DNA of 64,000 nucleotides from NCBI GenBank assembly GCA_033558025.1, contig JAUCEF010000014.1, positions 1,798,001 through 1,862,000 on the forward strand, read 5' to 3'. Position 1 is the stretch's first letter; each line of letters begins with the position of its first letter. Position numbers and translations under genes: made by a program. Below are positions 41,521-56,726 of the stretch, in pieces. This DNA comes from Phytophthora sp. 'mugwort'. Taxonomy: Eukaryota > Oomycota > Peronosporomycetes > Peronosporales > Peronosporaceae. A model generated the notes under the pieces. That model did no database searches and was not told the DNA's origin. It saw only the letters and a program-made list of their open reading frames with translations.

Positions 41521-41779
41521 TTGAAAAATGAATGATGTCGAGTTTGATTTAGGCTTTTCGGATGTACGTTCTCTGCCAACTGCAACTTTCGTAAAAAGTC
41601 GTAATTACGCAGGAAAAAAAATAAATTTGTAAACACTTTTCTCTGATATTTTGATAACAGTGCAGAAATTTGTTTAGGTGGAGTCGTTTCTTCGCTGTAT
41701 CAACTTGATACGCCCTCATGCTTCCCGAATTTCAATTTTCAATTCATTCGATCACACAAAGCAACACTCGTACCCGTGG

Positions 41780-42004
41780 TTACGGACTTGTGTTGAACTG
41801 ACTGTACATTAAGCCCTTCATCATGAAAGACCCATAAGTGACCCAGTCGATAGCGATTGCAGCGGTTAAGCTGCCACCGACGGTCTTTGCACCCCATTGC
41901 TGGGTATACCTTTGACCGTTTTCACTTATGTCGCCCTGGCGTATATAATACGCCGCACAAACACTGTCGTGTTCGTTATCTATAACCACTCGTTTAATAA
42001 ACAA
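41780..42004 (-). CDS. Small hypothetical ORF downstream of the capsid gene
   Basis: 74 residues; its start overlaps the last 11 bases of the capsid gene in another frame of the same strand. It contains a Gly/Ala-rich stretch (WGAKTVGGSLTAAIAIDW) and no motif that I recognise. Overlapping starts are common in compact viral genomes, but it could also be chance. Confidence 0.3.
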   Translation of the reverse strand: MFIKRVVIDNEHDSVCAAYYIRQGDISENGQRYTQQWGAKTVGGSLTAAIAIDWVTYGSFMMKGLMYSQFNTSP

Positions 42005-43667
42005 GACCGATCATAGACGGACTAGGGGGTAGCACTACTTCATGTTGGTTCATGAATGCATTTCTGCAGATGCCTTGCGACATCATAGCCCCCTGTTTGC
42101 GACTAACACCTAATCGCAAACTGCAACTTCCTTCTGACACTAAGATAAAATTAATGGCTTTTGCCTGCACGAAGAATGTGGCGGTATGATCCGTGTCGGA
42201 GGCGATAAACGAGGATGTGTAGTTAAGGTACAGCTCGCGCGCCCGGGACACGTTGAAATGACCCGAGGGTTGGTATGCAGTCGGATGCAATGCAAAACTA
42301 TAGAAATACAAACCAGGATCCGTGGGCGCTGTGATTCCTGACCCGCCAAATTGGTACGGAATGTAAGAGTTGAAGAACTGCGCCGGGAACTCCGAGAACA
42401 AGTCCACCGAGTGCGCCTGCAGCTGCAACTTGGTGATGTGTGCCGTCTCGTACTTGATGTTCATGGCACCAGCACCAGTCACTGCGCCGTCCTGGAGCGT
42501 GGTGTTCGTTACAGCGCAGAAGCGGTGCCAATCCTCCATGTGGCTCGACACGGTGCCGTCCTGCGTGCCGAACGCCACGCGGAGCGGGTTTGCTACGCGG
42601 TTAGCCGTCGGCTGGAACCCAAACGTGAGTGTCTCAATCGGCCACTTCAGTTGCACCAGGTGGATGCTGTCCGAGCTCTTGTTCAGGTTCTGGGTCTGAC
42701 GACGGTGCACACGCACGAGCGTGAAGGCCACGCGGTCGATGAAGATATCGTGCACTTCCGGCAGCACGAACATGTTGTTGATGTACAGGTCGAACGTGGA
42801 GATCTGCGGCGTGGACAGCGTCGGGTTGGTAGCGTCATCGGCCTGGGAGGCGGGGTTGATAATCTGGTGGTACAGGTTCTGCATCTGCGTCAGGCGGAAT
42901 GTGATGAAGCGCTGCCCGTAGGGAACTGAGACCGAGGGGAAGGCGAGACTGATGTCAGTGTTGAACCAGAACAGCAGCGGGACCCACAGGTTCAGGTCCT
43001 TGTGGGCGGGCTTCCAGGTCTGATAGCCGTCAAACACCTGGTGCTTCACACGAGCCGTGATGGGCGCGCTGGTGGCGCTGGCGTCGGGAACGGGGGCCAC
43101 GCCGGTGTAGGGCGCCTCCTGGCCCATGCAGCGGTTCCAGGCGACCATCTTGTCCGTGGGCACGTGCAGCTGGCGGTGAATGACGTATGACTCGCTGGTG
43201 TACGAGTCGATCGGGTTAGAGTTGACCTCGAACCGCACTTCGTCGAAGATGCGCTCACCCGGGTAGTCGCAGTGGCGATACAGGGTCACGTCCGATGCCA
43301 TGAGACTCTTCGTGCCGCGCGTCAGGGAGGTGGTGGGGGCTCGGATGATGACGTTGGCGACCATATCGGCAAAGAAGTCGCCGTACTGCGGAATGGAGAT
43401 GGCGACCTCCGATCCGAGGGTAACGTTGTTGGCGGACACCTTGAAGTACTGGAACGCAATGGCAACGTACGGTTTGTAGTGTGCGTTCACGAACAGGACG
43501 TGGGTTCGTTCCAAGTCGGCCAGGGACGGGTTAGTATCCGCCTCCTGGTTGGCGGCACGAGCCGCTTTCACTGCCGCAATGTTGTCACGCAACAGCTGAT
43601 TAGCCAGCAGGAGCGCATCCATGCGCCCATCGTTCGACACGAGCGTGAAAATACCACCAGTCGACAT
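41994..43667 (-). CDS. Major capsid protein of giant-virus (nucleocytovirus) type
   Basis: Predicted to form the trimeric capsomers of an icosahedral capsid by a double jelly-roll fold. The intact ORF has 557 residues, within the family's usual 450-600. The N-terminus opens with GGIFTLVSNDGRMDALL, like the GG-xx-LVAxGAQD start of nucleocytovirus capsids. Near residue 455 the C-terminal signature PSGHFNVSRARELYLNY matches the family pattern P-x-G-x-x-NFSRI-D. Strand-rich sequence with few charged clusters lies between, as expected of jelly rolls. No signal peptide. The start is preceded by an AT-rich stretch. G+C is raised over its surroundings, unlike the decayed neighbours. The exact viral family cannot be told by eye; oomycete genomes are known to contain such insertions. 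Confidence 0.85.
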   Translation of the reverse strand: MSTGGIFTLVSNDGRMDALLLANQLLRDNIAAVKAARAANQEADTNPSLADLERTHVLFVNAHYKPYVAIAFQYFKVSANNVTLGSEVAISIPQYGDFFADMVANVIIRAPTTSLTRGTKSLMASDVTLYRHCDYPGERIFDEVRFEVNSNPIDSYTSESYVIHRQLHVPTDKMVAWNRCMGQEAPYTGVAPVPDASATSAPITARVKHQVFDGYQTWKPAHKDLNLWVPLLFWFNTDISLAFPSVSVPYGQRFITFRLTQMQNLYHQIINPASQADDATNPTLSTPQISTFDLYINNMFVLPEVHDIFIDRVAFTLVRVHRRQTQNLNKSSDSIHLVQLKWPIETLTFGFQPTANRVANPLRVAFGTQDGTVSSHMEDWHRFCAVTNTTLQDGAVTGAGAMNIKYETAHITKLQLQAHSVDLFSEFPAQFFNSYIPYQFGGSGITAPTDPGLYFYSFALHPTAYQPSGHFNVSRARELYLNYTSSFIASDTDHTATFFVQAKAINFILVSEGSCSLRLGVSRKQGAMMSQGICRNAFMNQHEVVLPPSPSMIGLVY

Positions 43668-43784
43668 TTAGACTAAAAACTATTGGAGAGTTGGCGCCGC
43701 TACGAGAATCGGATAGCCAATCGGGCTTTTGATATATTACATCCAGGGGTAATTAAAACGCGATAAAAATAAATAATTCGTTGC

Positions 43785-44183
43785 TTTATTATTTTTTTGG
43801 ATGCGGGAAACAGCGTCCGAGACTGCGTCCACCTCGGGGTCCTGCGTCTCCGCCACAGTTTCGAAAGGAGGCGTCCACTCGTCAGGGTCTCCTGGCTCTC
43901 TTCGACAATATCCCACTCGTCCAGGTAGTTGATCTTCTTTCGCTTGCGCGCCATGGCAAAGCTGGAGGATTGAGAACGAGCCACCACCGTAGAGAGTAAG
44001 CCCTCCTTTTCCACTCAATGGTTGTATGGCCAAGTGCAGCAAAAGCACTTCCCCCAGACTGTTGACATGAGATACAAACGGCCACGATATGGAAGTAAGG
44101 AAATTGCCCATTGCTCGGAGGCGCAGGCATACATCTCGCTCGGATTGATATTCTGGAAAAAACAGGGTGGCATTCTCGGTGAC
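43785..44183 (-). mobile_element. Truncated Fanzor/mariner element carrying only 5' ends of both genes
   Basis: Read on the minus strand from the terminal motif at 44183 (GTCACCGAGAATGCC), it gives the transposase beginning (SERDVCLRLRAMG) and then, after a deletion of nearly the whole transposase, the Fanzor beginning (MARKRKKINYLDEWDIVEE ... PPFETVAETQDP). The sense ends near 43800. The rest of Fanzor and the other terminus are missing. The Fanzor start closely parallels that of the intact copy at 54311. Confidence 0.8.
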
Positions 44184-44256
44184 TAATAAAATAATATTTA
44201 AAAAATTTGTTTGCAAGCATATAAGTAAAAGAGTTGTCTTCTTCGCATCCGAAATC

Positions 44257-44478
44257 ATGTCTGCCAAATTTGCAAAAATCGCAGCGGTGCTGCTGGTGCT
44301 AGTCTGCGCGGTACTGTGTATTTTCTGGGGTCTTCAATACGACAAGCTTAAAAGTGACAGCAGCAAGAAAGACAAGGACATTGCCATTGCATCCCTAGCA
44401 CTATCTGTATTTAGTGTCGTTGCTTCAATTTATCTAGCCTCGCACTTGACAAAGCACCCCGACTCGCCGAACCGTTAA
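44257..44478 (+). CDS. Small two-helix membrane protein of the viral island
   Basis: 73 residues: MSAKFAKIAAVLLVLVCAVLCI begins with a hydrophobic helix (about residues 7-24), followed by a Lys/Asp-rich loop (KSDSSKKDKD) and a second helix (about residues 40-58). The ORF is open 30 codons further upstream, but that part is the AT-rich leader with a TATAAGTA element near 44218; the Met at 44257 is the better start. Small two-helix proteins are frequent in virions of giant viruses. No named family. Confidence 0.55.
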   Translation: MSAKFAKIAAVLLVLVCAVLCIFWGLQYDKLKSDSSKKDKDIAIASLALSVFSVVASIYLASHLTKHPDSPNR

Positions 44479-44484
44479 AGGGGC

Positions 44485-44779
44485 CTAACCTGGCTGGAGA
44501 CTTTCCCATCTCCACGTTTTTTTAATCTACAATCTTGAATTCTTCCATGCGTCCGCGCTTCAGCATGTTGTTCGCCGCATTCACGTCGCGGTCTCAGTAG
44601 CTGGCATTGCAAACATCGCGGCGTAGCACGTCTCGTTGTAAGTGCCGCAAATTATCCCCCTCTTCAGACTGCCGATATTAGATATGGGGGTAAGGAATAG
44701 GCCCATTGTTCGGCATACATCTCGCTCGGATTGATATTCTGGAAAAAAAAACAGGATAGGACATTTTCAGTGACCTCCG
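44485..44779 (-). mobile_element. Internally deleted Fanzor-element derivative (family B)
   Basis: Ends on the right with GGACATTTTCAGTGACC (44759-44775). Read on the minus strand it retains the transposase-side end, then a junction, then the last codons of a Fanzor relative (DRDVNAANNML, the RuvC-III region) and its 3' tail with a GGAGATGGGAAAGTCTCC hairpin near 44500. The left terminal motif is not present. Closely matches 45347-45645. Confidence 0.75.
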
Positions 44780-44875
44780 CAATAATTTTCAAAAAAATCA
44801 GAGCATTTACGCGTGCCCTGCTAAAACCACCTCCAGGTTCTTCAAGTTCGCGAGGGGGGGACTGGCTAACCCATC

Positions 44876-45292
44876 TTAAATCGCTCGGCGACAGACAGGG
44901 CAGGGGGCATCCTCAGTACTGGAAGCCTCCATGATCCACCGCCAAATACACGCCGCGCAGAAGATGTGTTCGCACCAGCGAAGACACCGTGGGTTTTTGA
45001 CCTCATCCAAGCAGATCGGACAAAGGAGCTGTTCCACATCGTCGTCGTCTGAGTTTGAGTCTCCGATACAAATCGGACGGGTTTGAGTTCCATCTTGAGA
45101 TCCTTCTTGAGTCGGTACTGGAAACCAGTCCCATCCACCTTGAGATCCTTCTTGAGTCGGTACTGGAACCCAGTCCCATCCATCTTGATGGGCGACTTGA
45201 CTTGGAGTGGTCGAGCGTCCAGAGATTGGTGCATAGTTCACGCTGATTAAGCGGTCGTTGCGCTGGTTGTTCGGGATGTTAGTAAAACTCAT
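44876..45292 (-). CDS. RING-finger protein of the viral island
   Basis: 138 residues from the Met at 45292 (MSFTNIPNNQRN). The ORF stays open to 45412, but the extra 40 residues are partly encoded by the adjacent transposon derivative, so I reject that start. Residues about 50-85 hold two tandem copies of a 16-residue unit (GWDWxPVPTQEGSQ). The C-terminal 50 residues are a C3HC4-like RING (CPICLDE ... CEHIFCAACIWRW ... CPVC). RING proteins act as ubiquitin ligases; in giant viruses they are common and may alter host proteins. No transmembrane segment. Confidence 0.7.
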   Translation of the reverse strand: MSFTNIPNNQRNDRLISVNYAPISGRSTTPSQVAHQDGWDWVPVPTQEGSQGGWDWFPVPTQEGSQDGTQTRPICIGDSNSDDDDVEQLLCPICLDEVKNPRCLRWCEHIFCAACIWRWIMEASSTEDAPCPVCRRAI

Positions 45293-45346
45293 CGCGATCA
45301 GAAATGAGATATTTATCATTCCGATTTTAGCAATTTTATGCTGGGG

Positions 45347-45645
45347 GTCACTGGGAATGTCCTCTCCTGCAGTATCCAGGTCTAACATGGCTGGAGACTT
45401 TCCTATCTCCAATCTTTTGAATTTCTTTCATGCGTCCGCGCCCCAGCATGTTGTTCGCCGCATTCACGTCGCGGTCTCAGTAGCTGGCATTGCAATCATC
45501 GCGGCGTAGCACGTCTCGTTGAGAGTGCGGCAAATTCCCCCTCTTCGGACTGCTGATATGAGATACAAACGCTATGGGGTAAGGAATAGGCCCATTGTTC
45601 GGATTGATATTCTGAAAAAAAAACAGGGTGGATATTCTCAGGGAT
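45347..45645 (-). mobile_element. Internally deleted Fanzor-element derivative (family B)
   Basis: Bounded by GTCACTGGGAATGTCC (45347-45362) and a degenerate GGATATTCTCAGG at 45632-45644. Read on the minus strand it starts with the transposase-side end and then jumps to a Fanzor 3' remnant (DRDVNAANNML near 45470) and the 3' tail with the hairpin GGAGA/TCTCC near 45395. About 300 bp, non-coding. The stem-loop and terminal sequence agree with the copy at 44485-44779. Confidence 0.8.
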
Positions 45646-45672
45646 TGCCGGTTGCAGCCACGGACCACTTGA

Positions 45673-46017
45673 TCAAGACAACATTTCACGCAACCTATCG
45701 CGATCTTGGAGAACGTTCAAGGGCATGCCATCAATGTCGTACGCGACTAACGTCGGATAGTGCGTGATCGTGTATGCAGGGTTCGCCAAATCATTCCATT
45801 GCTGCAACATGCCAGCGCTTTCGTTTGCGTCGAGTACAAGGAAGTGCACATCACCGAACTCCTCGCTGATGGTTTGGTACACAGGGAGGAAGTTTCGACA
45901 GTGGGTGCAGTTGTTTGATTTGATGAGCAGGATCAGCAACCTTCCTGGCCCTAGCTTCAGTGTGCGCTTATCGATGGTCTGCAGGACAAAGTTCCGGTCA
46001 TTTACTGGGTGTATCAT
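45673..46017 (-). CDS. Thioredoxin-like protein of the viral island
   Basis: 114 residues from the Met at 46017 (MIHPVNDRNFVLQ). It is preceded by an AT-rich TTGTAATATATAAA leader. The ORF is open further upstream but the extra 90 codons overlap a better plus-strand ORF. The thioredoxin fold is seen in LLILLIKSNNCTHCRNFLPV, with a CxxC active site (CTHC) and the conserved cis-Pro region HYPTLVAYDIDGMPL. It would catalyse thiol-disulphide exchange, as thioredoxin-like proteins of giant viruses may do in virion assembly. No signal peptide, so cytosolic. Confidence 0.75.
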   Translation of the reverse strand: MIHPVNDRNFVLQTIDKRTLKLGPGRLLILLIKSNNCTHCRNFLPVYQTISEEFGDVHFLVLDANESAGMLQQWNDLANPAYTITHYPTLVAYDIDGMPLNVLQDRDRLREMLS

Positions 46018-46113
46018 TTTATATATTACAATTGTTTTTTTTTGCAAATGAAACCTCTCCACCTTTTCATGACCATCATCGCCATATATATATTGAGAGG
46101 AGTTCCGTCCGCC

Positions 46114-46362
46114 ATGGCGCCAGCCGCCAAGCTCTATTTTCCGATACCGGCGGCCTAGTCGCGGCGTCGCGGCAAAAAAGTCGCCGCTAATGCAGCGCGA
46201 CCGGTCGAGGTTTACTGGCCGACGGCCGTACATTCGACGCCGCACCTGGAAGACGGGACCCGAGCGGCTGCTGTGAACTTGGAGCAAATAACTGAAGGTC
46301 TGAAGCGTTTATTATTGCAGTCGCCTCGCCGCTCGGCGGTACTTACCGAGGAGGTCACCTGA
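46114..46362 (+). pseudogene. Small viral-island ORF interrupted by one TAG
   Basis: From the ATG at 46114 (CCGCCATGGCG), 30 bases after an AT-rich ATATATATATT, a frame of 83 codons ends at the TGA of 46360-46362, with a single in-frame TAG at 46156-46158. The part after the stop has protein-like composition (PVEVYWPTAVHSTPHLED, then NLEQITEGLKRLLL). It is divergent to the thioredoxin-like gene, so both could share the AT-rich start region. The last codons lie in the terminal repeat of the next transposon derivative. It may be a broken small gene or chance. Confidence 0.35.
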
Positions 46363-46591
46363 AAATGTCCTATCCTGTTTTTTTCAGAATACATACTTTT
46401 CTATATGAAAACTCAATCCGAACAATGAACCTATTCCTTACCCCATATCGCTCATATCAGCAGTCCAAAGAGGGTGGAGGGCTTTCTACGGCTGGTTGCT
46501 CAACAAGACGTGCTACAGAGTGCTACGCTGCGGCCACGATGATTGCAATGCCAAGACCTGGATATTGTAGGATAGGACATTTTCAGTGCCG
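46351..46591 (+). mobile_element. Internally deleted Fanzor-element derivative, plus orientation
   Basis: Terminal motifs GGTCACCTGAAAATGTCC (46353-46370) and GGACATTTTCAGTGCC (46575-46590) face each other. The left part matches the transposase-side end with CAGAATA...CAATCCGA; the right part ends as in family B (GACCTGGATATTGTAGGA). About 240 bp and no ORF. Confidence 0.75.
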
Positions 46592-46675
46592 CGTGAACTA
46601 TATCCTTTTTCGAGGTCAAAATCGACCATGAAAAAAGTGATAATATCATCGTAAATCTCAGCTACTTTTGCCACC

Positions 46676-47359
46676 ATGGACTCTACGCTTATTCAGGATC
46701 TCGAAGAGCTTCGGGAGCAGAAGCTCGGCGAGCTGGTAGATCTATGCAATCAGCAGAAACTGCTACAAGACAGATTCGCTGCTGGCACTGATTTCCAGAG
46801 GGTGTTGGATGACTATAAGTATCACAAAGATCTGATGGAGATCAAGGTCGATCTCATGCGCATCCTATTGGAGAGCGAAGAAGCCGCTCAACAGGACAGG
46901 AACCAGGCCGAGGTGCGTTCTGAGCAACTAGAGAAGCAGAACAACTCCCCGCTTGTTGACTCGTACTACATTTGGCCCGACCCAAGGGCAGAGGTCTCCA
47001 AGCGACACGGTAACGTGCTCTTGCCCGAGCAGTTCCAGGAGATGCATCTGCTGACAGAAGCGATTTATCGATTGGAAATCAAGGGGAATGCGAAGGAGGA
47101 GCTCGAGAAGGTGGAGCGGAAACTCGAGGAGATGGAGCGGAAACTCGCTAATGCCCAAGGAAGCCGGGAGGAGATGGCGATACCACCCGCCGACGTCGCC
47201 AATGTCGCGGAGGAGCTGGCGGAAAACGCCAATCTTCAACTCGAGACAGCTGAAGCAATCCGACAGTGCTGGAATGCCCTGCGCGAAGTCCGTGCGGCTG
47301 GTTTCACCGAAACTGGCTACACTGGCTTCGCCGATGCCGCTGACTTAGCCAACATGTAG
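46676..47359 (+). CDS. Coiled-coil protein of the viral island
   Basis: 227 residues starting in a strong context (GCCACCATGG). The chain is almost all helix with heptads: residues 5-90 (LEELREQKLGELVDLCNQQK onward) and 125-165 (EELEKVERKLEEMERKLANA) should form coiled coils, separated by a Pro/Tyr-bearing hinge (YYIWPDPRAEVSKRHG). The C-terminus is Ala-rich. I do not recognise the family. Upstream is the AT-rich GTGATAATATCATCG stretch, which is itself palindromic. Likely structural or a scaffold protein, but that is only inference from shape. Confidence 0.55.
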   Translation: MDSTLIQDLEELREQKLGELVDLCNQQKLLQDRFAAGTDFQRVLDDYKYHKDLMEIKVDLMRILLESEEAAQQDRNQAEVRSEQLEKQNNSPLVDSYYIWPDPRAEVSKRHGNVLLPEQFQEMHLLTEAIYRLEIKGNAKEELEKVERKLEEMERKLANAQGSREEMAIPPADVANVAEELAENANLQLETAEAIRQCWNALREVRAAGFTETGYTGFADAADLANM

Positions 47360-47586
47360 ATGTAAGATACGTTTACAACCTTCTTAATCCAGAAAAAATG
47401 CATGTAATGTTGTTTCGCGCCCAAGTGTTATCACTCACTTGATTGTGACTTCGAGCCTTCTCGAGACAGGAGGCGCGCCTGTTTTGTTTTTCGGCTTTCT
47501 TGCGGACACAAAATCGACATTCCATTGGTCTTAGTATTGGACGCCGCTAAAACGTCCTGCCCAAGCCCTTCATTGCCGCTACTACA
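47360..47586. other. Intergenic spacer in the viral island
   Basis: 227 bases between two plus-strand genes. It is less AT-rich than other spacers and shows no transposon terminus. No ORF of note. Confidence 0.4.
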
Positions 47587-48543
47587 ATGAGGGTGGTCAC
47601 TCCCGCTAACATGACTTTCGATGAGGCGGACTTGCGCATACCCAATCCGCTCCAACGCACTATGTATCCGACGAAGATTTACTGCGATGAGATGAGCGGC
47701 GATTGTTTCAACGACATCGATGGGGTCCTAGATGGGTTGAACAGGGAGTTGGAAACGTGCCACTCAAGCAACGCCTTAAACACTACGGCCGAAGAAGTAC
47801 ATGTCATGTTTGTTGATAACGCGATAGTCGCGGAACAGTATCCAGACTGGATTCCTGGGACCTATGCTACGTGGAAAATGCATGAGCATGCCGAAGGCAT
47901 CATAAGGAATGAGTTGATCGGCAACCCGAGCAGTCGCGATGACATTGACCGTGTTCTAACCAATCAAAGGGAGCGCGTCGAGTTTTGGAAGGACCATTTC
48001 ATGGATTGGTGTGAAACGTTTGCCAATGGGATATTGAGTGAGAACGCCGCCCTCTGCAAACCTCTCGAAGAACGAATCGCCACGATGGAGCGCATGCGCA
48101 GAATGCTGATGCAGACGATGGTGGAGGGATACGTTCAGGCGGATGTCGTTCAGGCGGATGTGTCGCCGACCCCGGCTACCCCGCCAGTCCCGCCGGTCCC
48201 TTTGCGGAGGTCGGCCCGTCTACGAGATCGGCAAAAACGTCGCCGCACCTCGGCAACATCGGAGGTACTAAGTTTCCATGAGGCTGCTCCGAGTACTGTC
48301 GAAAGTTTCTCGGTTCGTGCCGCCTCGGTAACATCGTCGGATGTACTAAGTTTCCACGAGACTGCTCTGAGTACTGTTGAAAGTTTCTCGGATCATGCCG
48401 CCTCGGTAACATCGGAGGTACTAAGTATCTACGACGACCGTTCAAGCGTCGACTCAGAGCCGATGGACACGGAAGAATGTCCATCGGAACTTGTTGATGA
48501 CGGTTCAAGCGCCGAGGAGGATCTCATCGAGATCGAGGAATAA
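47587..48543 (+). CDS. Hypothetical protein with 25-residue C-terminal repeats, viral island
   Basis: 318 residues. The first 180 are globular-looking with Cys, Trp and aromatic residues (EQYPDWIPGTYATWKMHEHA) and match nothing I know. Next come the basic LRRSARLRDRQKRRR and then two and a half repeats of about 25 residues (SEVLSFHEAAPSTVESF and kin), at 48255-48440, encoded by 75 bp DNA repeats. The tail is acidic (DEDLIEIEE-like), ending at 48541. The basic patch could be a nuclear localisation signal. The repeats suggest slippage and a disordered tail. Function unknown. Confidence 0.5.
   Translation: MRVVTPANMTFDEADLRIPNPLQRTMYPTKIYCDEMSGDCFNDIDGVLDGLNRELETCHSSNALNTTAEEVHVMFVDNAIVAEQYPDWIPGTYATWKMHEHAEGIIRNELIGNPSSRDDIDRVLTNQRERVEFWKDHFMDWCETFANGILSENAALCKPLEERIATMERMRRMLMQTMVEGYVQADVVQADVSPTPATPPVPPVPLRRSARLRDRQKRRRTSATSEVLSFHEAAPSTVESFSVRAASVTSSDVLSFHETALSTVESFSDHAASVTSEVLSIYDDRSSVDSEPMDTEECPSELVDDGSSAEEDLIEIEE
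48255..48440 (+). repeat. 75 bp coding tandem repeats
   Basis: Two full copies and one partial copy of a unit containing GGAGGTACTAAGTTTCCA-like sequence, in frame in the preceding gene. The copies differ by several substitutions, so they are not freshly duplicated. Confidence 0.8.
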
Positions 48544-48980
48544 GTACCTTCGACAGCTCCACTACGTCACTTGCAGTGGTGTGCCTCAACACTATCACTT
48601 GGTGATAACCCAGTCCTTCATATTGCGATGGTAGCTTACGACAATAAACGCCATATGCTAAGACACAGAAGGAATTCTATTCTAGACAGTCTTGGCGTAT
48701 ACTCATGTGCGGAGGGGATGAGGTCCCCAATGCGCAAGAGCAGATACGTAATAAAGCTACCATCCCTTAGTTGGATTGGTAATCACCAGGGGGGAGTGTA
48801 TGCGCGCGACTGCGGATACAGAGGGAGCATTTGTGTGGTTTCCTACATATTAAACAAAAAAAAGAAAAAAAATTCACGTTCATTATTGTAAAAAACACAG
48901 AAAAATCATGCATGCACTGGAAACATCAAGAAACCAAGGAGTGGTTTTGGCAGGGTGTGCTCCTGCGTTTTTGTATTATT
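48544..48980. other. AT-rich intergenic sequence, viral island
   Basis: Contains an A-rich tract near 48856-48879 and a short ORF at 48571-48891 with no recognised feature. The region may hold a 3' end of the upstream gene. Confidence 0.4.
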
Positions 48981-48984
48981 ATTG

Positions 48985-49024
48985 GGGTCACTGAGAATGT
49001 CCTCTCCTGCAATCTCAGTGACCT
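48985..49024. mobile_element. 40 bp palindromic remnant with two transposon termini
   Basis: GGTCACTGAGAATGTCC (48986-49002) is followed after about 11 bases by ATCTCAGTGACC (49012-49023). It looks like a Fanzor/mariner derivative reduced to its terminal repeats. As RNA it can fold into a hairpin. It overlaps the stop of the minus-strand peptidase gene. Confidence 0.65.
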
Positions 49025-49773
49025 CCATAATAAAAGCTCGGTACAGACGGATCGTACAGCGGTGAGTACGCCACCGTCATCCCGCAGTACAGCGTGGGCG
49101 AAGTGCGATAATCCACAGGCCGGTAGATACCCAGTCTCACGGCCTCAGACAGTACGAAACCGAAGTTGTTCCAGAAGGCCTGGTCGTGGCCGTACGTCGG
49201 CGTAAATAGATGCGAGAGCTCGTGAATCATCACGAAGGTGAGCGTATTCATGTCCGAGTCCACCCGGTCTCCGTTGGTCGGGTCGCGTAGGCACACTGCG
49301 AAGATATCCCCCTTGTCGATTACGTAGGAGGTATCGCCACCCGACCGCGACGGGATGTTCTCCTCCAGGTTCGCGGTCACGAAGTTATCCTGCATGGCAG
49401 CAATGCCTTTCCTCACAGTTTCGCGAAATGCCGGTGCGATTTGGCTCAGTCCCGCTGGATCCACAATATAGCGGTTGTACATGTTTGCAATCAGCGCCGT
49501 GGCCTTCGCGTTGAGAAGATCGAGTGTCTCGGCCGCCAGAACGGGCTGTGACAGGTCTTCGTGGACTTTGTACGAGTTATTACTGCCTGCGCGAATGCGC
49601 TTGAAGTTCTCTTTCTGCAAAAACGGCTCGCCGCTGTTCATACACTGGCACAAACCTGGCTTCGGGAACCACCACAACAGCAGTGCGATGACGCCAAAGG
49701 TAAGCAACCACCAGGGGACAAGCGTCAGTTCCAGCGGAACCACCGCACATCCGAAGAACGTGTCCGAGTCCAT
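49015..49773 (-). CDS. Membrane-anchored zinc metallopeptidase-like protein of giant-virus type
   Basis: 252 residues. An N-terminal hydrophobic helix (about residues 16-36, VPWWLLTFGVIALLLWW) anchors it, followed by a Cys-bearing linker. The catalytic motif HELSH with following residues (MIHELSHLFTPTYGHDQAFW) lies near residue 190: two His and the Glu for catalysis, plus a third metal-ligand candidate in GHDQAFW. DYRTSPTLYCGM follows. This arrangement is seen in WLM-like/HExxH proteins carried by several giant viruses. It would cleave peptides at a membrane or in the virion. The last codons (GGH and the TGA) are contributed by a transposon terminus. Divergent to the next gene with a shared AT-rich start region. 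Confidence 0.75.
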   Translation of the reverse strand: MDSDTFFGCAVVPLELTLVPWWLLTFGVIALLLWWFPKPGLCQCMNSGEPFLQKENFKRIRAGSNNSYKVHEDLSQPVLAAETLDLLNAKATALIANMYNRYIVDPAGLSQIAPAFRETVRKGIAAMQDNFVTANLEENIPSRSGGDTSYVIDKGDIFAVCLRDPTNGDRVDSDMNTLTFVMIHELSHLFTPTYGHDQAFWNNFGFVLSEAVRLGIYRPVDYRTSPTLYCGMTVAYSPLYDPSVPSFYYGGH

Positions 49774-49811
49774 GGACTGTATTATTTTTTTTTAATATAT
49801 ATATATATATA
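49774..49811. promoter_or_regulatory. Bidirectional AT-rich start region
   Basis: The 38 bases between two divergent ATGs consist of a T run followed by alternating TA (TTTTTTTTTAATATATATAT). With no room for anything else, they must contain the start signals of both the metallopeptidase and the small membrane protein. Compact AT-rich promoters of this kind are usual in giant viruses and unlike the host genes in this window. Confidence 0.6.
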
Positions 49812-50159
49812 ATGTCGGACCGCGAGCGACTCGTCGATAATCCGGGCGAACCTGCCCAAGTTCTAGTCAATGATGTGGCCATGCCCCCCTCCAACGAGGA
49901 GAGATGTGCTCGCTCTCGCGATCGCGACGACTTGGTAGGCCTTCAACTCAACATGATGGCGAAGCTGGATGCTCGCATGCTCATCGTGCTATGGCTGACG
50001 TTTCTGTTTCTTCACACTGAGATGTTTGCGGACACCGTGTTGAAGCGGTTCGACGGAGCTACCACCCCGAGCGGAGCCATGTCCGAGAAGGGTACGGTGG
50101 TCGCCTCGGCTTTTATGATCGTCGCGATAATCGCCTGCTCATTATTCTTCGCTCACTGA
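49812..50159 (+). CDS. Small membrane protein with two helices, viral island
   Basis: 115 residues. The N-terminal 50 are hydrophilic (MSDRERLVDNPGEPAQ). Two hydrophobic helices follow at about residues 56-72 (MLIVLWLTFLFLH) and 95-113 (VVASAFMIVAIIACSLFF). Unknown family; a virion membrane protein is plausible. Its stop codon (TGA, 50157-50159) is part of the CACTGAGAA motif of the next transposon derivative, so the original C-terminus may have been different. Confidence 0.55.
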   Translation: MSDRERLVDNPGEPAQVLVNDVAMPPSNEERCARSRDRDDLVGLQLNMMAKLDARMLIVLWLTFLFLHTEMFADTVLKRFDGATTPSGAMSEKGTVVASAFMIVAIIACSLFFAH

Positions 50160-50457
50160 GAACGTCCCTATGCCATGAATATATATATGTATGTGCCTGG
50201 CTACGAAATCCTGCAGCGAGTACGCCGCAAGTCTTTCCAGACACTTTTTTGCCGAAACGCCCTCGGTCGCTTTCATTTGCTTCCCTTTCAGCCCGTTCCG
50301 AAGCAGTTCCAGCATGTTCCTCGTGGCATTCCCGTCCTGGACCCAGCAGTTGGCCTTGCAGTGACAGCGCAAGACGTTCCTGGTTCGGCTTGAGTCTTGA
50401 GTTTTCATAGAAAAGTATATATTCTGGAAAAAAACAGGATAGGATCAGTGACCCCAA
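50145..50457 (-). mobile_element. Internally deleted derivative of the Fanzor/mariner element (family A)
   Basis: Flanked by TA at 50143-50144 and 50458-50459. The left part (50152 to about 50390) matches the 3' end of the intact Fanzor element at 51796 onward: first the non-coding 100 bases with GTATGTGCCTGGCTACG, then the last Fanzor codons up to the zinc-finger region (matching ARNVLRC-like words). The right part jumps to a short transposase-side end (GAAAAAAACAGGATAGGATCAGTGACCCC). About 313 bp. It can move only with proteins made elsewhere. Confidence 0.85.
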
Positions 50458-50467
50458 TAATAATACG

Positions 50468-51571
50468 ATGAACGCCGAAGATTATGTATCCGTCATCAAG
50501 AGGGTGTCCGCCGAGCTCGACGTGCCCGTGACCGACCCCACACTGATCCGCAATGTGTCGTGGTATTGCAATGGCCTGGACTTCCGTTCAATGACCTACC
50601 CAAATAAGGATGCGCGCAATGCAGCGGTCGCCAGTATGTACACGGCCTCGCTAGCGAAGCCGCCACTCAGCGAGGCACCCTTTGACTTTGAGGCGTACGC
50701 CAGGAGCGTGGGTCAGCGGTCCGACACCATTGCCTCCACGCCGCACGTTGAGTTCAGTTTGCTGACGGCCTGGATTAGCCAGCATATGCCGACAGTGGCG
50801 AGCAAGGCCATGAGCGTGTACATCGACTCGCGTTCGAGGAAGAAGCTGTCGGGCACAGAAGATAGCATCGCAGACTTTGAGTTCAGAGTATCCCCACGCC
50901 ATACGCAGGTCGTCGAGGTGGACGGACACGTTGTGGCCAACGAGATCCCCACCATGGTCACGTACTTTAAGATCCCTCGAATCATGCTGCCGTACAACGC
51001 CGAACTCCGCCAGCGAAACTGCACCAACGAGATCACACTGACCTTCACAGGGCTCCGCAGCAACGGCATCCTCTCACACGAAGACACCTACCACTTCGTG
51101 TTTTCATACGATCCCACTAAGCACCCGGACTCCCCAATGGTCGAGCTGATCCCGGTCAACGACTACTGTAAGTTCTCACCCCCACTGCGCGTGGTGGAGG
51201 ACCTGACGCTGCGGTTCAACGATCCCGTGTACCCGATTGCGTTTGCTCCCGATCGGCTGCGGCCGGTGTCGTTCAACTACAATTCTACAGAGGGGCGAAT
51301 TGTCTTCGGGGTCCCGCATGGCCTCTCCTCGGGCGATGTTATCGCGATCAGCAATCTATCCACGCGGGACGACGCGGCGAACGGAGAGTTTCTGAGCCAG
51401 ATCAACGATCCGCGCGGTATCATCATCAGCGAGATTGACACGTTCATCATCGCAACCAACATTAACTTCTCCCGGCTGAAGAGCCCAGAAAATACCTCGC
51501 TCCCGTGGGTGATCATCATCAGCCGAACCTTCCGTTTCCCGCTAGAGATCGGATATCAAGGCGGCGATTGA
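50468..51571 (+). CDS. Virion-protein-like gene with a YIDSRSR motif
   Basis: 367 residues, no membrane segments, rich in predicted beta strand. Near residue 117 it has MSVYIDSRSRKKLSG, followed by DFEFRVSP. This YIDSRxR-plus-strand pattern occurs in structural proteins of many giant viruses, probably minor capsid or penton-type components; this is by memory of the pattern, not by search. The C-terminal half has regular strands (PVYPIAFAPDRLRPVSFNY, RIVFGVPHGLSSGD). The ATG is only 9 bases from the flanking TA of the preceding transposon derivative, so its own promoter may have been replaced or lies in that element. Confidence 0.5.
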   Translation: MNAEDYVSVIKRVSAELDVPVTDPTLIRNVSWYCNGLDFRSMTYPNKDARNAAVASMYTASLAKPPLSEAPFDFEAYARSVGQRSDTIASTPHVEFSLLTAWISQHMPTVASKAMSVYIDSRSRKKLSGTEDSIADFEFRVSPRHTQVVEVDGHVVANEIPTMVTYFKIPRIMLPYNAELRQRNCTNEITLTFTGLRSNGILSHEDTYHFVFSYDPTKHPDSPMVELIPVNDYCKFSPPLRVVEDLTLRFNDPVYPIAFAPDRLRPVSFNYNSTEGRIVFGVPHGLSSGDVIAISNLSTRDDAANGEFLSQINDPRGIIISEIDTFIIATNINFSRLKSPENTSLPWVIIISRTFRFPLEIGYQGGD

Positions 51572-51591
51572 GGAGAAATCAATTTTTTATT

Positions 51592-51783
51592 ATTATTGGA
51601 GTCACTAAGAATGCCCCCCCATTTATCAGAATATCAATCCGAGCAATGGGCCTCTTATTCCTTACCCCATATCGCTCATGTCAGCAGTCTGAAGAGGGGG
51701 AATTTTGCGGCACTTGGTCATACAAGCAATGAGTGGAAAGGAGGGTGCGGACGCATGAAAGAGTTCAGAAGATTGTAGATTAT
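51592..51783 (+). mobile_element. Fanzor-element derivative, plus orientation, truncated
   Basis: Starts with TTATTGGAGTCACTAAGAAT at 51592 and continues with the transposase-side block (CAATCCGAGCAATGGGCC) and then a family B Fanzor 3' fragment (GCGGACGCATGAAAGAGTTC near 51746). It stops about where the intact element begins (TA at 51784), so the intact element may have landed in or against it. Confidence 0.7.
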
Positions 51784-51785
51784 TA

Positions 51786-51806
51786 CGAAGAGCACTGAGA
51801 ATGTCC
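51786..51806 (+). repeat. Left terminal inverted repeat of the Fanzor element
   Basis: Begins after TA; shares GCACTGAGAATGTCC with the right end at 55373-55393 (inverted), two mismatches in 21 bases. This end lies on the Fanzor 3' side. Confidence 0.85.
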
Positions 51807-51905
51807 TACTGGTTTCCCTATGCTACGAATATTTGTATGTGCCTGGCTACGGAACCCTGCGGCGCGTACGCTGCAAGTCTTTCCAGACACTTGTTTTTTT
51901 TCTCT
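51796..51905 (-). ncRNA. Candidate Fanzor guide-scaffold (omega) RNA region
   Basis: This non-coding stretch between the Fanzor stop and the transposon end is preserved in the deleted copy at 50152-50255 although neither part is translated. On the minus strand a 9-pair stem (CTTGCAGCG/CGCCGCAGG with loop TACG) is kept in the deleted copy as CTTGCGGCG/CGCTGCAGG: the one A-C mismatch becomes a G-U pair and the only other change is in the loop. A GTCTGGAAAGAC hairpin precedes it. In TnpB and Fanzor systems the guide RNA overlaps the element end beyond the nuclease ORF, with the guide supplied by flanking DNA. Here the guide would be read from bases left of 51786. Expression is not shown. Confidence 0.5.
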
Positions 51906-51908
51906 CGA

Positions 51909-54311
51909 CTACTGTCCGCGTCGAAACGCTTTCAGTCGCGTTGCTCCTCGCTTCCCCTTTAGCCCGCTCCGAAGCAGTTCCAGCATGTTCCTCGAGGCGT
52001 TGACGTCCCGGTTCCAGAAGTTGGCCTTGCATCGACTGTTGGTACAGCGCAAGACGTTCCTGGTGCACTTGAGCACGATCTTCTTGTCCGTCAGCTTGGG
52101 GCTCCGGAACTTTCGCATCTCCGCGATCTCCTTGACCTCCTTCTTGGACGGCCGTGCCTTTGATCGAACGTCCACTTCGTCCTTCTTCCGTTTCATCTTC
52201 ATGAACAGCCTGGCCTGTTTGAGGCGCTGGTGACAGCAGGAGCACGTGATGCTCGTCCGGAATTCGTCCATTGGAACCACCGTAGCACGTCTCTTCAACG
52301 CCTCCACGAACCCCTTGACCGGTCCCGTGGCATGACCCTTGATGCCATCTCTACGACTCCAGTCTCCGTAGGCGATGCATACTTGCTTGCTGGCTTTGGG
52401 TACGAGGCGTTGAGCCAGTGTATCCAACGCCTTCATCTTGGCGCGGTCCTGGGTGAAACGCCATCGTAAGAAGGACTGCTCCGCACTGAACACCAGCAGG
52501 AACCGCAAGTGCATCCAGAAGAACTGAAGATGGCTCCAGTAAGCGTCGTAGCTCGCAGTCTTGAACGAGGGCATGGCGTGAACGACTCCAGCATACCACG
52601 ACTCGCGCTTCTTGAGGTTTTCATTGTAGAAACGGAAGTCATTCATGCGAGCCAGGTGCCGGTACTCACGCGTTGAGATCTCCGTGACTCGCTCCTTCCT
52701 CTCTCTTCGACGTGTTCTAGCGCGTTGATGTCGTCGGTGGACGGATCGACGACGTGTACGAGTCGGGATGTGACCAACCGACACGGCAGTGACGAGAGAC
52801 CGCATCCCGGGGTCGATGCCGATGAACACGTCAGGCAAGTACCCTGGACCAAGCTTGAACAACTCCTTGGCAAACGTGTCCTCTTCCGCGATCTCTTCTG
52901 GGGTCTTCGCCTTCTTCTTGGTTTTCTTGTTAATGGCAGGAGTTGCGGTGCCGTCGTTCTTCTTTTGTTTCTTCTTTGGCGCCTGCTTCTTCACGACGAC
53001 AGAGACCGTAGTTACAGGTCGTATCATGGTGATTGACGCCCCGTAGCCATTAGTCTTGATTTCGTCAGCAAACCTGCGGTTCCGTGTCTCGAACTGGTCG
53101 ATGTTGAACACCTTACGCAGGATTTCGCTTCGATGCTGTTGAAATGTCTTCTTCTCAAACGGCAATTTATCAACATCCGGCAACTCGGTTTCCATGAACT
53201 CCTTGACCTTGGGTTCGTGTATCAAACGAGCAAAGAGACCAGACAGGGTCGACCCATTAAGTTTGACGTAGGCGGCTTGATACGAGGTCGAGACTGGCAA
53301 CAAGGAGTACACTCTGGCTCCTTTATGGCTCGGATGCTCGGCCACAAACTTCTCCATGAAGGTCAGCATATCCCATAGCTTGCGGAGAAAGTGGGCGCTG
53401 TTTGCACGCAGCTGCCACTGCCATGGTACGATCTCCAACCACTCGCGTAACTCCTTCTCGATTGGGTCACTGGTCTCATCCCACTCCGTCCACACCTTGA
53501 CCATCTTGCCCGTGAGGTTGCCGTCGTCGTCTTCTTCAGGTACCGCCTTCACACGATAACAGCTATCCACAAGTCTCTTTGTCTGCCTGTACGGGAGCTC
53601 CAGCTTGCCCTCTTCCGCGTACTTGAACCGAATGTACTGGTGCAGACGTCTCCGGAAGTGCAGGGCGATCATGTTGAGGGCGTTGATGGACATGAGCTTG
53701 GCAATTTCATTGACCATGTCAGTAGCGTTCTCAATAACCTCCGACTGGTAGGAGGTCATCCTTTCACGACCTGCCCAATATTGCTGGCAAGTCCTGTGAG
53801 ACGATGGATACTTTGTCGTTGCCTTCGGTCGATCCCGCCTCTCGATATTTCCCAGTGAAGCAACGCAGCAGCGATAGAAGAACATCTGTTCAATCGCAGG
53901 AACCTCGTCGTTCTCCTTCAGACAACGCAGGACGTGTAGGTTGGCCAGATGCCAGCCTTCCAGCTGGACTTGTTTCATGACCACACAGACTCGCTTGATC
54001 TCCTCGACCAGCCACGGCAGTCTGCAAACGCGGGTGAGCTTGCAAATCACGCTGGAGTGGATGTTTTTTGTGCTCTCCTTCACTTGATATGTCGGCGGGG
54101 GTGCCAGCTCTTGTGAAGGTATTGGCAGTTGGGAGAGCTCTTGGATGACAGTCTCCACGTCGTCGTTGTCTTCAGTCTTCTCCTCGTCTCCATCCGGATC
54201 TTGCGTCTCGGCCACGGTCTCGAACGGCGGGAACATCGCGTCGGGGTCTTGACTCTCCTCCACGACATCCCAGTCGTCCGGGTAGTCGTCTTTCTTGCGC
54301 TTGCGCGTCAT
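51909..54311 (-). CDS. Fanzor nuclease (eukaryotic TnpB homologue)
   Basis: 800 residues. Fanzor proteins are eukaryotic relatives of TnpB and Cas12 that cut DNA under guidance of an RNA from their own transposon end. The split RuvC domain lies in the C-terminal third: Asp500 in FIGIDPGMRSLV (RuvC-I), Glu683 in VPMDEFRTSITCSCC, and Asp769 in WNRDVNASRNML (RuvC-III). Where TnpB has its RuvC-II glutamate this protein has IAYGDWSRRDGIKG (Asp650), so Glu683 is probably the displaced catalytic Glu known for Fanzors. A four-Cys zinc site is formed by CSCC and the later CTNSRC. Residues 415-460 are a Lys-rich, nuclear-localisation-like linker; the N-terminal 60 are acidic. It sits 90 bases behind the transposase on the same strand, within the terminal repeats. 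Confidence 0.88.
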   Translation of the reverse strand: MTRKRKKDDYPDDWDVVEESQDPDAMFPPFETVAETQDPDGDEEKTEDNDDVETVIQELSQLPIPSQELAPPPTYQVKESTKNIHSSVICKLTRVCRLPWLVEEIKRVCVVMKQVQLEGWHLANLHVLRCLKENDEVPAIEQMFFYRCCVASLGNIERRDRPKATTKYPSSHRTCQQYWAGRERMTSYQSEVIENATDMVNEIAKLMSINALNMIALHFRRRLHQYIRFKYAEEGKLELPYRQTKRLVDSCYRVKAVPEEDDDGNLTGKMVKVWTEWDETSDPIEKELREWLEIVPWQWQLRANSAHFLRKLWDMLTFMEKFVAEHPSHKGARVYSLLPVSTSYQAAYVKLNGSTLSGLFARLIHEPKVKEFMETELPDVDKLPFEKKTFQQHRSEILRKVFNIDQFETRNRRFADEIKTNGYGASITMIRPVTTVSVVVKKQAPKKKQKKNDGTATPAINKKTKKKAKTPEEIAEEDTFAKELFKLGPGYLPDVFIGIDPGMRSLVTAVSVGHIPTRTRRRSVHRRHQRARTRRRERKERVTEISTREYRHLARMNDFRFYNENLKKRESWYAGVVHAMPSFKTASYDAYWSHLQFFWMHLRFLLVFSAEQSFLRWRFTQDRAKMKALDTLAQRLVPKASKQVCIAYGDWSRRDGIKGHATGPVKGFVEALKRRATVVPMDEFRTSITCSCCHQRLKQARLFMKMKRKKDEVDVRSKARPSKKEVKEIAEMRKFRSPKLTDKKIVLKCTRNVLRCTNSRCKANFWNRDVNASRNMLELLRSGLKGKRGATRLKAFRRGQ

Positions 54312-54401
54312 CGTACGAAAGATGGAATGTGAAAGTCATTTCGCTTCCGGCCGGCGACAAAAATCCCCCACCAGTTATTTTTCGTATTACTGTTTGTACG
54401 A

Positions 54402-55346
54402 TCAACTGCAACATTCCGTTTGTCCAATCCGCAAGCACTTTGCGAACATCCCTCGACAAACAGTTGGCGTGAGACCTTGAACCGCGAGCTGGATACATGA
54501 GTGTAACGCGTCCAGGGTTCGAGGAGCGCTTCGGTTCACGTACTTGCGAATGAAGTTGAAACAGAGCTCGACGGGGTTCAGCTGGGGTGAGTAGGGCGGC
54601 AAGTACGCCAAAGACATCTGTTTGTACTCGGCCACTTCTGAGATCGTGGTGAGGTTCTGCTTCCGCAACACGTGCGACGCGTGATGCGTTGCGCAATTGT
54701 CCAAGAGAACGCTTGTGTTGTCTGGTAACCCGCCGAGGAAGGCGTGGAAGCGAGGAGAGGTCACCGAGCCCTGCATGAGTCGCCAGTCGACCACGCCATC
54801 CGGTGACGTGGCCAAGATCAACGAGTGCATCTTTCCCCTCGCACTCGGTCGTACTACAACAGCCGGTCGTCCTCGCTTACTCCAGGCGTATTTGCGTGAA
54901 TGATTGAGGAAGAAAGCTGCTTCATCCAGTGCGATCCAGGATGTATCCGAGCAGCAAGATATTTGCGAGAGGAAAGTCTGTTGACGGGCAAGATCGGCCT
55001 CGTGGTATGCGGACGCCGCTCTCTTGAACGAGAGATGGTAGCGCCTCAGTACTCTACCGAGCGTTCGAACGGAGACTCTGACACTGAACACCTGCGCTAG
55101 AAAAGCCACTCCGTCGCACAACCGACTCGTGTTCTTGCTCTGAAAGAAATCAACGACTGCTTCCTCTTGTTCACTTGATAGCTTCCGACGAGAGTCTCGG
55201 TTGAGAGGTCGAGCTGCTCTGGATCCACCCTTTAGCCAACGCTGCACAGTGCGTACACAGACGACCAATGCATCGGCGATCTGGCACAGGGTGAAGCCCA
55301 TGGCTCGCAACCGAGAACATACATCTCGCTCGGCTTGAGATTTCAT
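54402..55346 (-). CDS. IS630/Tc1-mariner-type DDE transposase
   Basis: 314 residues, intact. The N-terminus is a helix-turn-helix (FTLCQIADALVVCVRTVQRW) that should bind the terminal repeats, followed by a second helical region (RRKLSSEQEEAVVDFF). The catalytic triad is Asp141 (WIALDEAAFFL), Asp216 (SVLLDNCATHHA) and Glu260 (SPQLNPVELCF), with 43 residues between the last two, within the spread of IS630-Tc1-mariner enzymes. The YLPPYSPQLNPVE block is typical of the superfamily. The Met at 55346 is 27 bases inside the right terminal repeat. It should cut and paste this element and its deleted relatives. Confidence 0.88.
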   Translation of the reverse strand: MKSQAERDVCSRLRAMGFTLCQIADALVVCVRTVQRWLKGGSRAARPLNRDSRRKLSSEQEEAVVDFFQSKNTSRLCDGVAFLAQVFSVRVSVRTLGRVLRRYHLSFKRAASAYHEADLARQQTFLSQISCCSDTSWIALDEAAFFLNHSRKYAWSKRGRPAVVVRPSARGKMHSLILATSPDGVVDWRLMQGSVTSPRFHAFLGGLPDNTSVLLDNCATHHASHVLRKQNLTTISEVAEYKQMSLAYLPPYSPQLNPVELCFNFIRKYVNRSAPRTLDALHSCIQLAVQGLTPTVCRGMFAKCLRIGQTECCS

Positions 55347-55372
55347 GCTACCATATATTTAAAAAAGAGTAT

Positions 55373-55393
55373 GGACATTCTCAGTGCCCTCCG
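55373..55393 (-). repeat. Right terminal inverted repeat of the Fanzor element
   Basis: Inverted partner of 51786-51806, followed by TA at 55394-55395. This end lies next to the transposase start and probably contains its promoter (TATATTTAAAAAAG at about 55353-55367). Confidence 0.85.
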
Positions 55394-55645
55394 TAAGCGA
55401 GAACGCATTGCGAGAAAGCAACCGCTTGCATGTTATTGAAGAAGATCAACCGTTGTAAGCGCTAGTCTGAAATCAAAAGAAGAGGTCATATCCCCTGTCA
55501 TAAATATCCAGAGCTTTCCGGGCGAAGCACGGCATTATTTTCCTTTTGGCGTAGTGACATCACCACGCTCCCCGCCGCTGCCAGATGGGTCAGTCTTCTT
55601 TTTCCCTGCATCTACAAGAAGCTCAGCCGGCGATAGCACACTACC

Positions 55646-56726
55646 ATGACGAAGCAAGTTGCTTTTGCGAAGAAGAAGCCAACGAGGGTTGTCTCGAAGA
55701 AAATCAAGGATTCGGGGAAGCAGCCCGCCGTGACAACGGATCAGCAGCGAGCGTCGTGGGCTGTGTACGAGGAGTTCGACCTGCTTGACCTGTATGCAAA
55801 GGCCCGTGACGATCCCCCATTCACAATGGACAAAGGTCTGAAGTCAAAGGCGATGGAGCGAAATGACTGCAGCGCTGAACATGAAGCACAAGCGGACGCT
55901 CAAAAAAGGTGAAGTTGATCTTTTGATATAACTTAGTTCGCGCTTGCTCGTTGTACAAACCTTTGATGCTTGTGGCAGAGCAATACAAGTCCAAGCTCGA
56001 CCGTATTATGCGCGACTATGAATTGTACAAAGAAACAAGGGGCTCAGCGATGTAGGTGTCTGCTTCCGCACAGGAAATCTCACGTTTCCGGACGATGTTA
56101 GGGACGCTCTGATCGAAGCGAAGCCGAAGAAGCAACACAGAAGACTATCCAGCTTCGAGGCATTGGATTTGAGCACGAGGTGCTTTGCAGCATGATTGCA
56201 GGTGAATCATAGCAGATCTCTTTCAACAGACCATCATGCATTGATACTAACTTGTTTCTGCTTTTAAAATAGGTGACTTGCGCCTACTGGCTTCAAAACT
56301 GATAGCGGCGAGACCCTTTTGAACGAAATTAGACATGATGATATTGCTAGCCACGCTCCACTGCCTCTTTCGACTGACGAGGTGGAAACAGTGATGACAT
56401 CGGACGATGCGGATGACGACGGGGGTACCCCACAAGACACGTCATGTTCAGCCAACCGTGCAACACTCCCTCCAAGCAATCAGCAGCGACTTGACATCGT
56501 ACACCGCATCCGCGATGGCACATGGAGAGCGAGGCGCACCAAAAAGCCGACCGATGACAAGAAGAAGGACGAGAAAGCGCTACGTGCGTTGTTGAAGCGG
56601 GCACAAATGTATTTTGAGTTCAAGTTGCAGCAAAACATGGGAAGTCGATGCGCCATGCTTGACGACGACGATGAAGATGACTCGATGGTCTTCAACGATG
56701 GTGATCAGCTACAGGCTGATGTCTAA
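55646..56726 (+). pseudogene. Decayed Myb/SANT-like protein of a PIF/Harbinger element
   Basis: Starts with a basic segment (MTKQVAFAKKKPTRVVSKK), then AVYEEFDLLDLYAKARDDPP. After an apparent intron near 55910-55978 it continues with KSKLDRIMRDYELYKETRG and GNLTFPDDVRDALIEAK, a Myb-like trihelix pattern used by Harbinger ORF1 proteins. The last part, 56319-56726, is acidic and Lys-rich (DDEDDSMVF near the end). Stops near 56050 and 56210 break the frame. In PIF/Harbinger transposons a Myb-like protein acts with the DDE protein, and a matching DDE remnant lies at 57735-58859 on the opposite strand. Confidence 0.6.

Follow-up and report, generated by a model that had tools for sequence, protein, structure and literature searches.

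In the 64,000-nucleotide stretch of Phytophthora sp. 'mugwort' contig JAUCEF010000014.1 analysed here (positions 1,798,001 to 1,862,000; the window), we identified what is very probably (about 0.8) a recently mobile DNA transposon of the IS630/Tc1-mariner type that carries a gene for the nuclease Fanzor1. Fanzors are relatives of CRISPR nucleases. The transposon sits at the right-hand edge of a segment of giant-virus DNA and has near-identical copies on two other contigs of the assembly (86.3 Mb, 154 contigs; contigs are written C1, C2 and so on, the window being on C14). An earlier note, made from the letters of the window alone, had proposed such an element, and its claims are taken up where the results bear on them. 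Coordinates are collected in Table 1.

Boundaries and genes of the element

Two inverted arms (51783-51806 and 55373-55396; 24 nt, 92% complementary) delimit the element, and with the TA dinucleotides at 51784-51785 and 55394-55395 excluded it runs from 51786 to 55393. Its 21-bp terminal inverted repeats differ at two positions, and the same ends are found in a copy on C18. Outside the window the ends recur next to different sequence (at both ends of the C18 copy and at one end of a copy on C16), and TA stands on both sides of the window copy and of the C18 copy. The arms and the ends of these copies place the boundaries, repeats and TA dinucleotides of the earlier note exactly, to the base. 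The end pattern of the intact type had 33 matches in the genome versus 1 for its control. The terminal core GTCACTGAGAATGTCC had 10 matches in the window at up to three mismatches, while its shuffles gave a mean expectation of 0.61 and a maximum of 3 (n = 100). TAATA follows five of the eight right ends (RE, the Fanzor 3' side) listed for this subfamily and on this count is a common target. On the minus strand the order is left end (LE), transposase (314 aa), a 90-bp gap, Fanzor (800 aa), a 3' non-coding region and RE.

The transposase scored 134.6 bits against the NCBI IS630 model NF033545 (E-value 4.8e-39, cut-off 100) and 67.4 bits against Pfam DDE_3 (E 1.6e-18, cut-off 28.6). D141, D216 and E260, with 74 and 43 residues in between, were invariant among 12 aligned transposases, so that the open IS630/mariner-type frame claimed with this triad is confirmed. 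By model and triad the protein is a member of the IS630/Tc1-mariner family, and its activity is predicted. As a literature search for DD43E returned no title on transposons, we give no subfamily name. The closest of 24 transposase relatives came from Globisporangium ultimum (72%). Another relative (P0034, 71%) shares one 5886-base contig with a Fanzor relative (P0004), which suggests another such two-gene unit. The transposase gave weak matches in PHROGs, one match in PADLOC (E 0.04) and one match of 22 residues in IMG/VR (3e-4).

The Fanzor frame contains D500 (in a DPG), E683 and D769, the three acidic RuvC positions that had been read from it earlier, and a C4 zinc finger formed by C690, C693, C756 and C761. 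The published Fanzor1 motif, D-X(125,275)-[TS][TS]XX-C4 zinc finger-X(5,50)-RD (PMC3627910), is matched by D500, TS at 686-687, the four cysteines and an RD ending at 769. The signature of DPG in RuvC-I with a glutamate six residues before the zinc finger (PMC10711439) is present as well, as IDPG at 499-502 and as E683 followed by FRTSIT and then C690. Among 7992 scored candidates, at least 32 proteins were homologous at E ≤ 1e-5, one of them a Globisporangium ultimum Fanzor (73%), and all 29 with an organism name were from Phytophthora or Globisporangium, which agrees with the oomycete setting given before. When an AlphaFold model was compared using Foldseek, all 7 Protein Data Bank chains at E ≤ 0.001 were Fanzors (SpuFz, GtFz, PpFz), with the next chain at E 0.23. 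Searches with the Fanzor gave no match in PHROGs or PADLOC and nothing in IMG/VR. By motif, signature, fold and homologues the protein is established as a Fanzor1, and RNA-guided DNA cleavage is predicted for it from the family.

Copies, recent mobility and selection

The second complete copy, C18:172519-176117 (TA included), differs by two substitutions and one 13-bp gap, the latter altering the C-terminus of its transposase (341 aa). The third copy, on C16 from 917183 on, differs by seven substitutions and a 1-base gap; it ends at element position 3367 (from the RE) and its transposase is without the N-terminus. Five of the six changes in its Fanzor gene alter amino acids, a pattern that fits decay of this copy. 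Three contigs thus carry near-identical copies, which argues that the element moved recently, and on this point the suggestion of a recently live unit holds.

Diverged relatives on C6, C2 and C3 are 68-75% identical at the DNA level in the longer aligned pieces and contain stops. The ratio of nonsynonymous to synonymous substitution rates (dN/dS) of Fanzor against C6, C2 and C3 was 0.17, 0.23 and 0.23 (725, 721 and 680 codons), and that of the transposase against C6 was 0.14 (281 codons). These low values indicate that both genes were selectively kept for most of the time since the lines parted, except for the transposase remnant of C3.

At the C6 relative (L004) the 12-bp word TACGAATTGCAG adjoins both ends and the LE repeat is shortened; the word may be either a longer duplication or a trace of end repair. 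Two equal-scoring Fanzor fragments 2.9 kb apart on C16 (256038-256766 and 258972-259700) are probably a tandem duplication.

A candidate guide-RNA scaffold in the 3' region

The 3' non-coding region is better conserved in the diverged copies than any coding part. Over the last 90 bp ahead of the RE repeat, identity is 88.5% to C6, 86.5% to C2 and 86.4% to C3. In these alignments Fanzor residues 80-490 reach 69% and residues 491-800 reach 76-81%; the spacer is at 67-69% (over 58 and 73 bases, with only 10 of its bases aligned for C2), and synonymous Fanzor sites are at 41-46%. The fold z-score versus shuffles was -2.0 and -2.2 for the window copy, -2.5 for C6, -1.9 for C2, -3.7 and -2.6 for two relic units (described below) and -0.75 for the opposite strand. 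Rfam gave no match at E ≤ 0.1 over 41000-56000. Known Fanzors encode the guide-RNA scaffold in this place (PMC10432273, section 7), and by its expected position the conserved region is a candidate for such a scaffold.

Fanzor1 RNAs are described as running about 15 nt past the duplication (PMC10711439). By analogy, the guide of the window copy would be the flank after the TA at the RE, which belongs to relic unit G. A 20-nt word of this flank recurs without mismatch inside a relic unit at C16:494788-494807. Another 16 sites match it at two or three mismatches, and several of these, but not all, lie in relic units (18 in total with itself; control 0). The exact match on C16 was rejected as a cleavage site; TTTTT and not TA precedes it, and cleavage there is not predicted. 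The flank word of the C18 copy had five matches at up to one mismatch, itself included, versus one for the reversed control; this flank, one of the two of that copy, is the end of another repeat family found in five other places.

From what is known of the two families, the element may work as follows. The transposase would cut at the inverted repeats and insert at TA. The Fanzor would bind an RNA transcribed through its 3' end (51906 to 51786) and on into the left flank, and the complex would cut DNA that matches this flank, that is, the empty site on the homologous chromosome. Repair of the cut site would then copy the element back.

The viral segment and its relic units

Left of the element lies a segment with an open gene for the major capsid protein of nucleocytoplasmic large DNA viruses (NCLDV), whose product matches a protein of P. 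cactorum at 86%, one of P. nicotianae at 74% and one on an environmental contig of 165 kb at 79%. A hallmark gene in a chromosome, with host repeat on both sides, identifies the segment as endogenous giant-virus DNA. Queries of IMG/VR with the capsid and with the end pattern found nothing.

Between the genes of this segment are seven related relic units (A-G), bounded by the same terminal core. Remnants of transposase and Fanzor in them indicate that the units are deletion derivatives of transposase-Fanzor elements. Judged as ghost elements, which keep both ends and the 3' region and have lost the Fanzor frame, C and F qualify and B and G do so in part, while D has a shortened 3' region, A only a 5' part and E only the end repeats. 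Another end type, TATTATTGGGGTCACTGAGAATGTCC, had 17 genome matches at up to three mismatches (C1, C6, C13, C14, C16, C18) and none for the reversed control. Island stretches on C13, C16 and C18 are 91-93% identical, and the C13 and C18 islands differ by an inversion that ends on two oppositely oriented units (C13:5034698, C13:5037059, C18:106824), which argues that such units acted as recombination sites. The examined flanks of the C16 and C18 copies of the intact element contained no relic-unit or repeat sequence at E ≤ 1e-3, which puts those two copies outside such islands for the stretches examined.

Broken relatives of the capsid gene were seen in the same genome at C11:2724787-2725632 and C5:3808804-3821184. 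The viral segment also contains a RING-finger open reading frame (44876-45388, minus strand; PF13445, 1.8e-9), a thioredoxin-like one (45673-46233, minus strand; PF00085, 3.5e-5) and, inside a 318-aa frame, an imperfect repeat of about 75-78 bp with three copies in part (48248-48434). C16:492650 is also among the positions listed for the inversion between paralogous viral islands.

The virus-host junction

From 55395 on, the right flank of the element is a repeat present at many places, which we read as helicase-like from its translation and not from a family match. All 11 oriented copies of this repeat elsewhere run uninterrupted through the site. In the window it is split, with TCATCC(C) lost at the insertion (6-7 bp) and no duplication. 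The viral segment is thus one insertion in a host repeat, with the outer TA of the element as its right border. The left flank of the element is viral-segment DNA (unit G) and the right flank is host repeat. The viral neighbourhood given in the earlier note therefore stands, by the capsid gene and the left flank, but a position wholly within the viral island does not, and with the element as the right-hand limit of the insertion, carriage into the chromosome by the virus becomes one of several readings.

In the order that we favour, a viral fragment with unit G at its end would first have been joined to the host repeat, and the element would have inserted later, at a TA where the two meet. The joint without the element would read TATTAA, a rare site that, complement included, is present three times in the 10.3 kb of viral sequence to the left of the element. 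TAT before TA is the common flank, which supports late entry.

Weighing of the reading

Several results weigh against a recently mobile Fanzor1 transposon with an RNA scaffold that entered late at the seam. No single-TA empty site of the element alone, the check that had been suggested earlier, was found in genome-wide searches with the left flank, the right flank, just one flank of the C18 copy and, for the C16 copy, the flank on the RE side; the uninterrupted host-repeat copies are empty sites of the whole viral segment. In the profile check suggested alongside it, the IS630 profile matched above its cut-off, but the Fanzor reached only 19.9 bits with PF07282, below the cut-off of 26.3. A 14-member Fanzor profile matched SpuFz1 and GtFz1 weakly (E 0.0092 and 0.72), and in the AlphaFold model the predicted local distance difference test (pLDDT) score averages 58.4 and falls under 50 through much of the RuvC part. 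For the remnant of the C3 transposase, dN/dS is 0.90 (118 codons). As to the scaffold, the 3' region of the C3 relative folds no better than shuffles (z -0.2), the end repeats show a degree of conservation similar to that of the candidate scaffold (RE repeat 78-87%, C6 LE repeat 88%), and none of 24 and none of 13 pairs showed compensatory base changes (alignments of 5 and 9 sequences). Under the favoured order, the element hitting the exact seam is a coincidence.

The absence of covariation, the modest folding scores and the several broken proteins of the wider family would all suit a 3' region that is conserved only as DNA bound by the transposase, with no RNA and with the Fanzor as a passenger that has ceased to cut. 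We consider this improbable, given that the region is asymmetric, being on the RE side only, that it sits where known Fanzors encode their RNA (PMC10432273), and that the Fanzor was under past purifying selection and has intact catalytic residues.

The junction itself can be explained in other ways. One-ended transposition of the 13.9-kb viral segment, brought in by the element, in which the transposase would have cut the LE and joined it to a TA of the host repeat while end repair closed the far end (41515) with the loss of few bases, accounts for a right border exactly at LE-TA and for an imprecise left border with 6-7 bp of repeat missing and no duplication. One repeat copy (L036) does have TA at the right place, but the other 10 of the 11 have CA there, the AGC after the TA departs from the usual ATA, and no end-like sequence lies at 41515; we hold this course to be unlikely. 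Composite transposition with an end at 41515 was rejected for want of an end-like sequence there. Recombination between two copies of the element, one in unit G and one in the host repeat, with the far side end-joined, is made thinkable by the near-identical copies on other contigs and by the related units that served as recombination sites in the inversion of other islands. It needs a host copy at the poor target TCC-TA-AGC, though, and with the element in none of the 11 host-repeat copies examined we regard it as quite unlikely. The junction also lies at one end of a 3.6-kb sequence shared by three contigs, where near-identical copies could mislead an assembly; yet the two repeat halves flank the segment in order and orientation with only those few bases missing, which a random misjoin would not give, and the element copies differ from each other, so that an assembly error is very improbable. 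Late entry of the element at an existing seam is the order that we continue to favour.

Relation to known systems

Bao and Jurka in 2013 described Fanzor1 in TA-flanked Mariner elements with a transposase from Pythium ultimum (PUl-1) and Phaeocystis globosa virus (PGv-1), that is, from one oomycete and one giant virus (PMC3627910). The window element resembles these in having Fanzor1 and a Mariner-like transposase between inverted repeats flanked by TA, and the Globisporangium ultimum proteins above (transposase 72%, Fanzor 73%) are only candidates for identity with those of PUl-1. In contrast to PUl-1 and PGv-1, the window element is one of three near-identical copies in its genome, has relic units in its surroundings and sits at a virus-host seam; PGv-1, as described, carries an extra endonuclease gene, whereas the window element has two genes (PMC3627910). 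The window element is thus another member of the kind described in 2013, well preserved and in an informative place.

Saito et al. 2023 reported Spu-1 Fanzor elements and Fanzor-less ghost loci in a fungus (PMC10432273). Like those ghosts, derivatives here keep the ends and the region from the stop codon to the right end, with the Fanzor frame lost; no transposase was found inside the Spu-1 repeats as that report presents them, whereas the intact window element has one and the window relics are embedded in viral DNA. For Phytophthora parasitica, endogenous giant-virus loci were published in 2021; there too a capsid gene of NCLDV type is found amid transposable elements of oomycete chromosomes, and the words Fanzor and TnpB do not occur in the main text of that paper (PMC8204020).

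A bolder reading joins these observations. The end of a Fanzor transposon would be the joint that fixed giant-virus DNA in a host chromosome, by one-ended transposition or recombination, and the Fanzor-less units, several of them with guide scaffolds and with different flanks as guides, would form a dispersed guide set usable in trans by an intact Fanzor. We think this combination rather unlikely to hold. The role of Fanzors for their transposons is called open in two papers (PMC10432273, PMC10711439). With a recent complete copy, its siblings, diverged relatives and derivatives that bear the candidate scaffold in one genome, that role can be put to the test, as to the flanks that become guides, the cutting of empty alleles and any dependence of the derivatives on the intact copy. 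The junction likewise gives an example on which a part of transposons in the settling of giant-virus DNA in chromosomes can be examined. Should the ordinary reading alone hold, the element is a well-preserved relative of those described in 2013.

Table 1. Features of the element, the viral segment and the junction (positions in the window)
Feature	Position	Strand	Evidence
Whole element, 3608 bp	51786..55393	-	inverted arms; same ends in C18 copy, one end in C16 copy
TA at right end (RE)	51784..51785	.	
TA at left end (LE, transposase side)	55394..55395	.	
RE terminal inverted repeat, 21 bp	51786..51806	+	
LE terminal inverted repeat, 21 bp	55373..55393	-	
IS630-type DDE transposase, 314 aa, open	54402..55346	-	NF033545 4.8e-39; DDE_3 1.6e-18; DDE triad
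Fanzor1 nuclease, 800 aa, open	51909..54311	-	motif, fold, homologues
3' non-coding region, candidate guide-RNA scaffold	51786..51906	-	conservation; fold z about -2; no covariation
Flank that would serve as guide by analogy, inside unit G	51764..51783	-	20-nt word search
Viral segment in one host-repeat copy, element at right edge, 13.9 kb	41515..55395	.	repeat halves either side
Left half of interrupted host repeat	41021..41514	+	91.9% to L031
Right half of interrupted host repeat	55395..55537	+	
NCLDV major capsid protein, 557 aa, open	41994..43667	-	PF04451 9.1e-24, PF16903 1.3e-11
Relic A: LE core, trace of transposase N-terminus, Fanzor N-terminus	43800..44183	-	residues 4-24 E 0.006; Fanzor 1.8e-10; core 44168-44183, 3 mismatches
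Relic B: LE core with C-terminal Fanzor codons and a partial 3' region; no RE core seen	44482..44774	-	Fanzor match weak, E 0.099
Relic C: both ends, Fanzor C-terminal codons, 3' region	45337..45645	-	Fanzor match weak, E 0.099
Relic D: ends, shortened 3' region	46359..46590	+	terminal-core matches
Relic E: hardly more than two facing end repeats	48977..49032	.	terminal repeats
Relic F: 3' region and Fanzor C-terminus as in intact element, LE as in other relics	50152..50466	-	Fanzor residues 750-788, E 1.2e-10
Relic G: cut by element just past Fanzor stop codon; 3' part missing	51588..51783	+	

Other genes in the window

Two 261-aa pectate lyases (PF03211; 15207-15992, minus strand, and 20489-21274, plus strand) have equal scores and matched positions and are oppositely oriented. 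Two nucleoside transporter genes (PF01733; 27985-29340, minus strand, and 36452-37819, plus strand) are also in opposite orientation.

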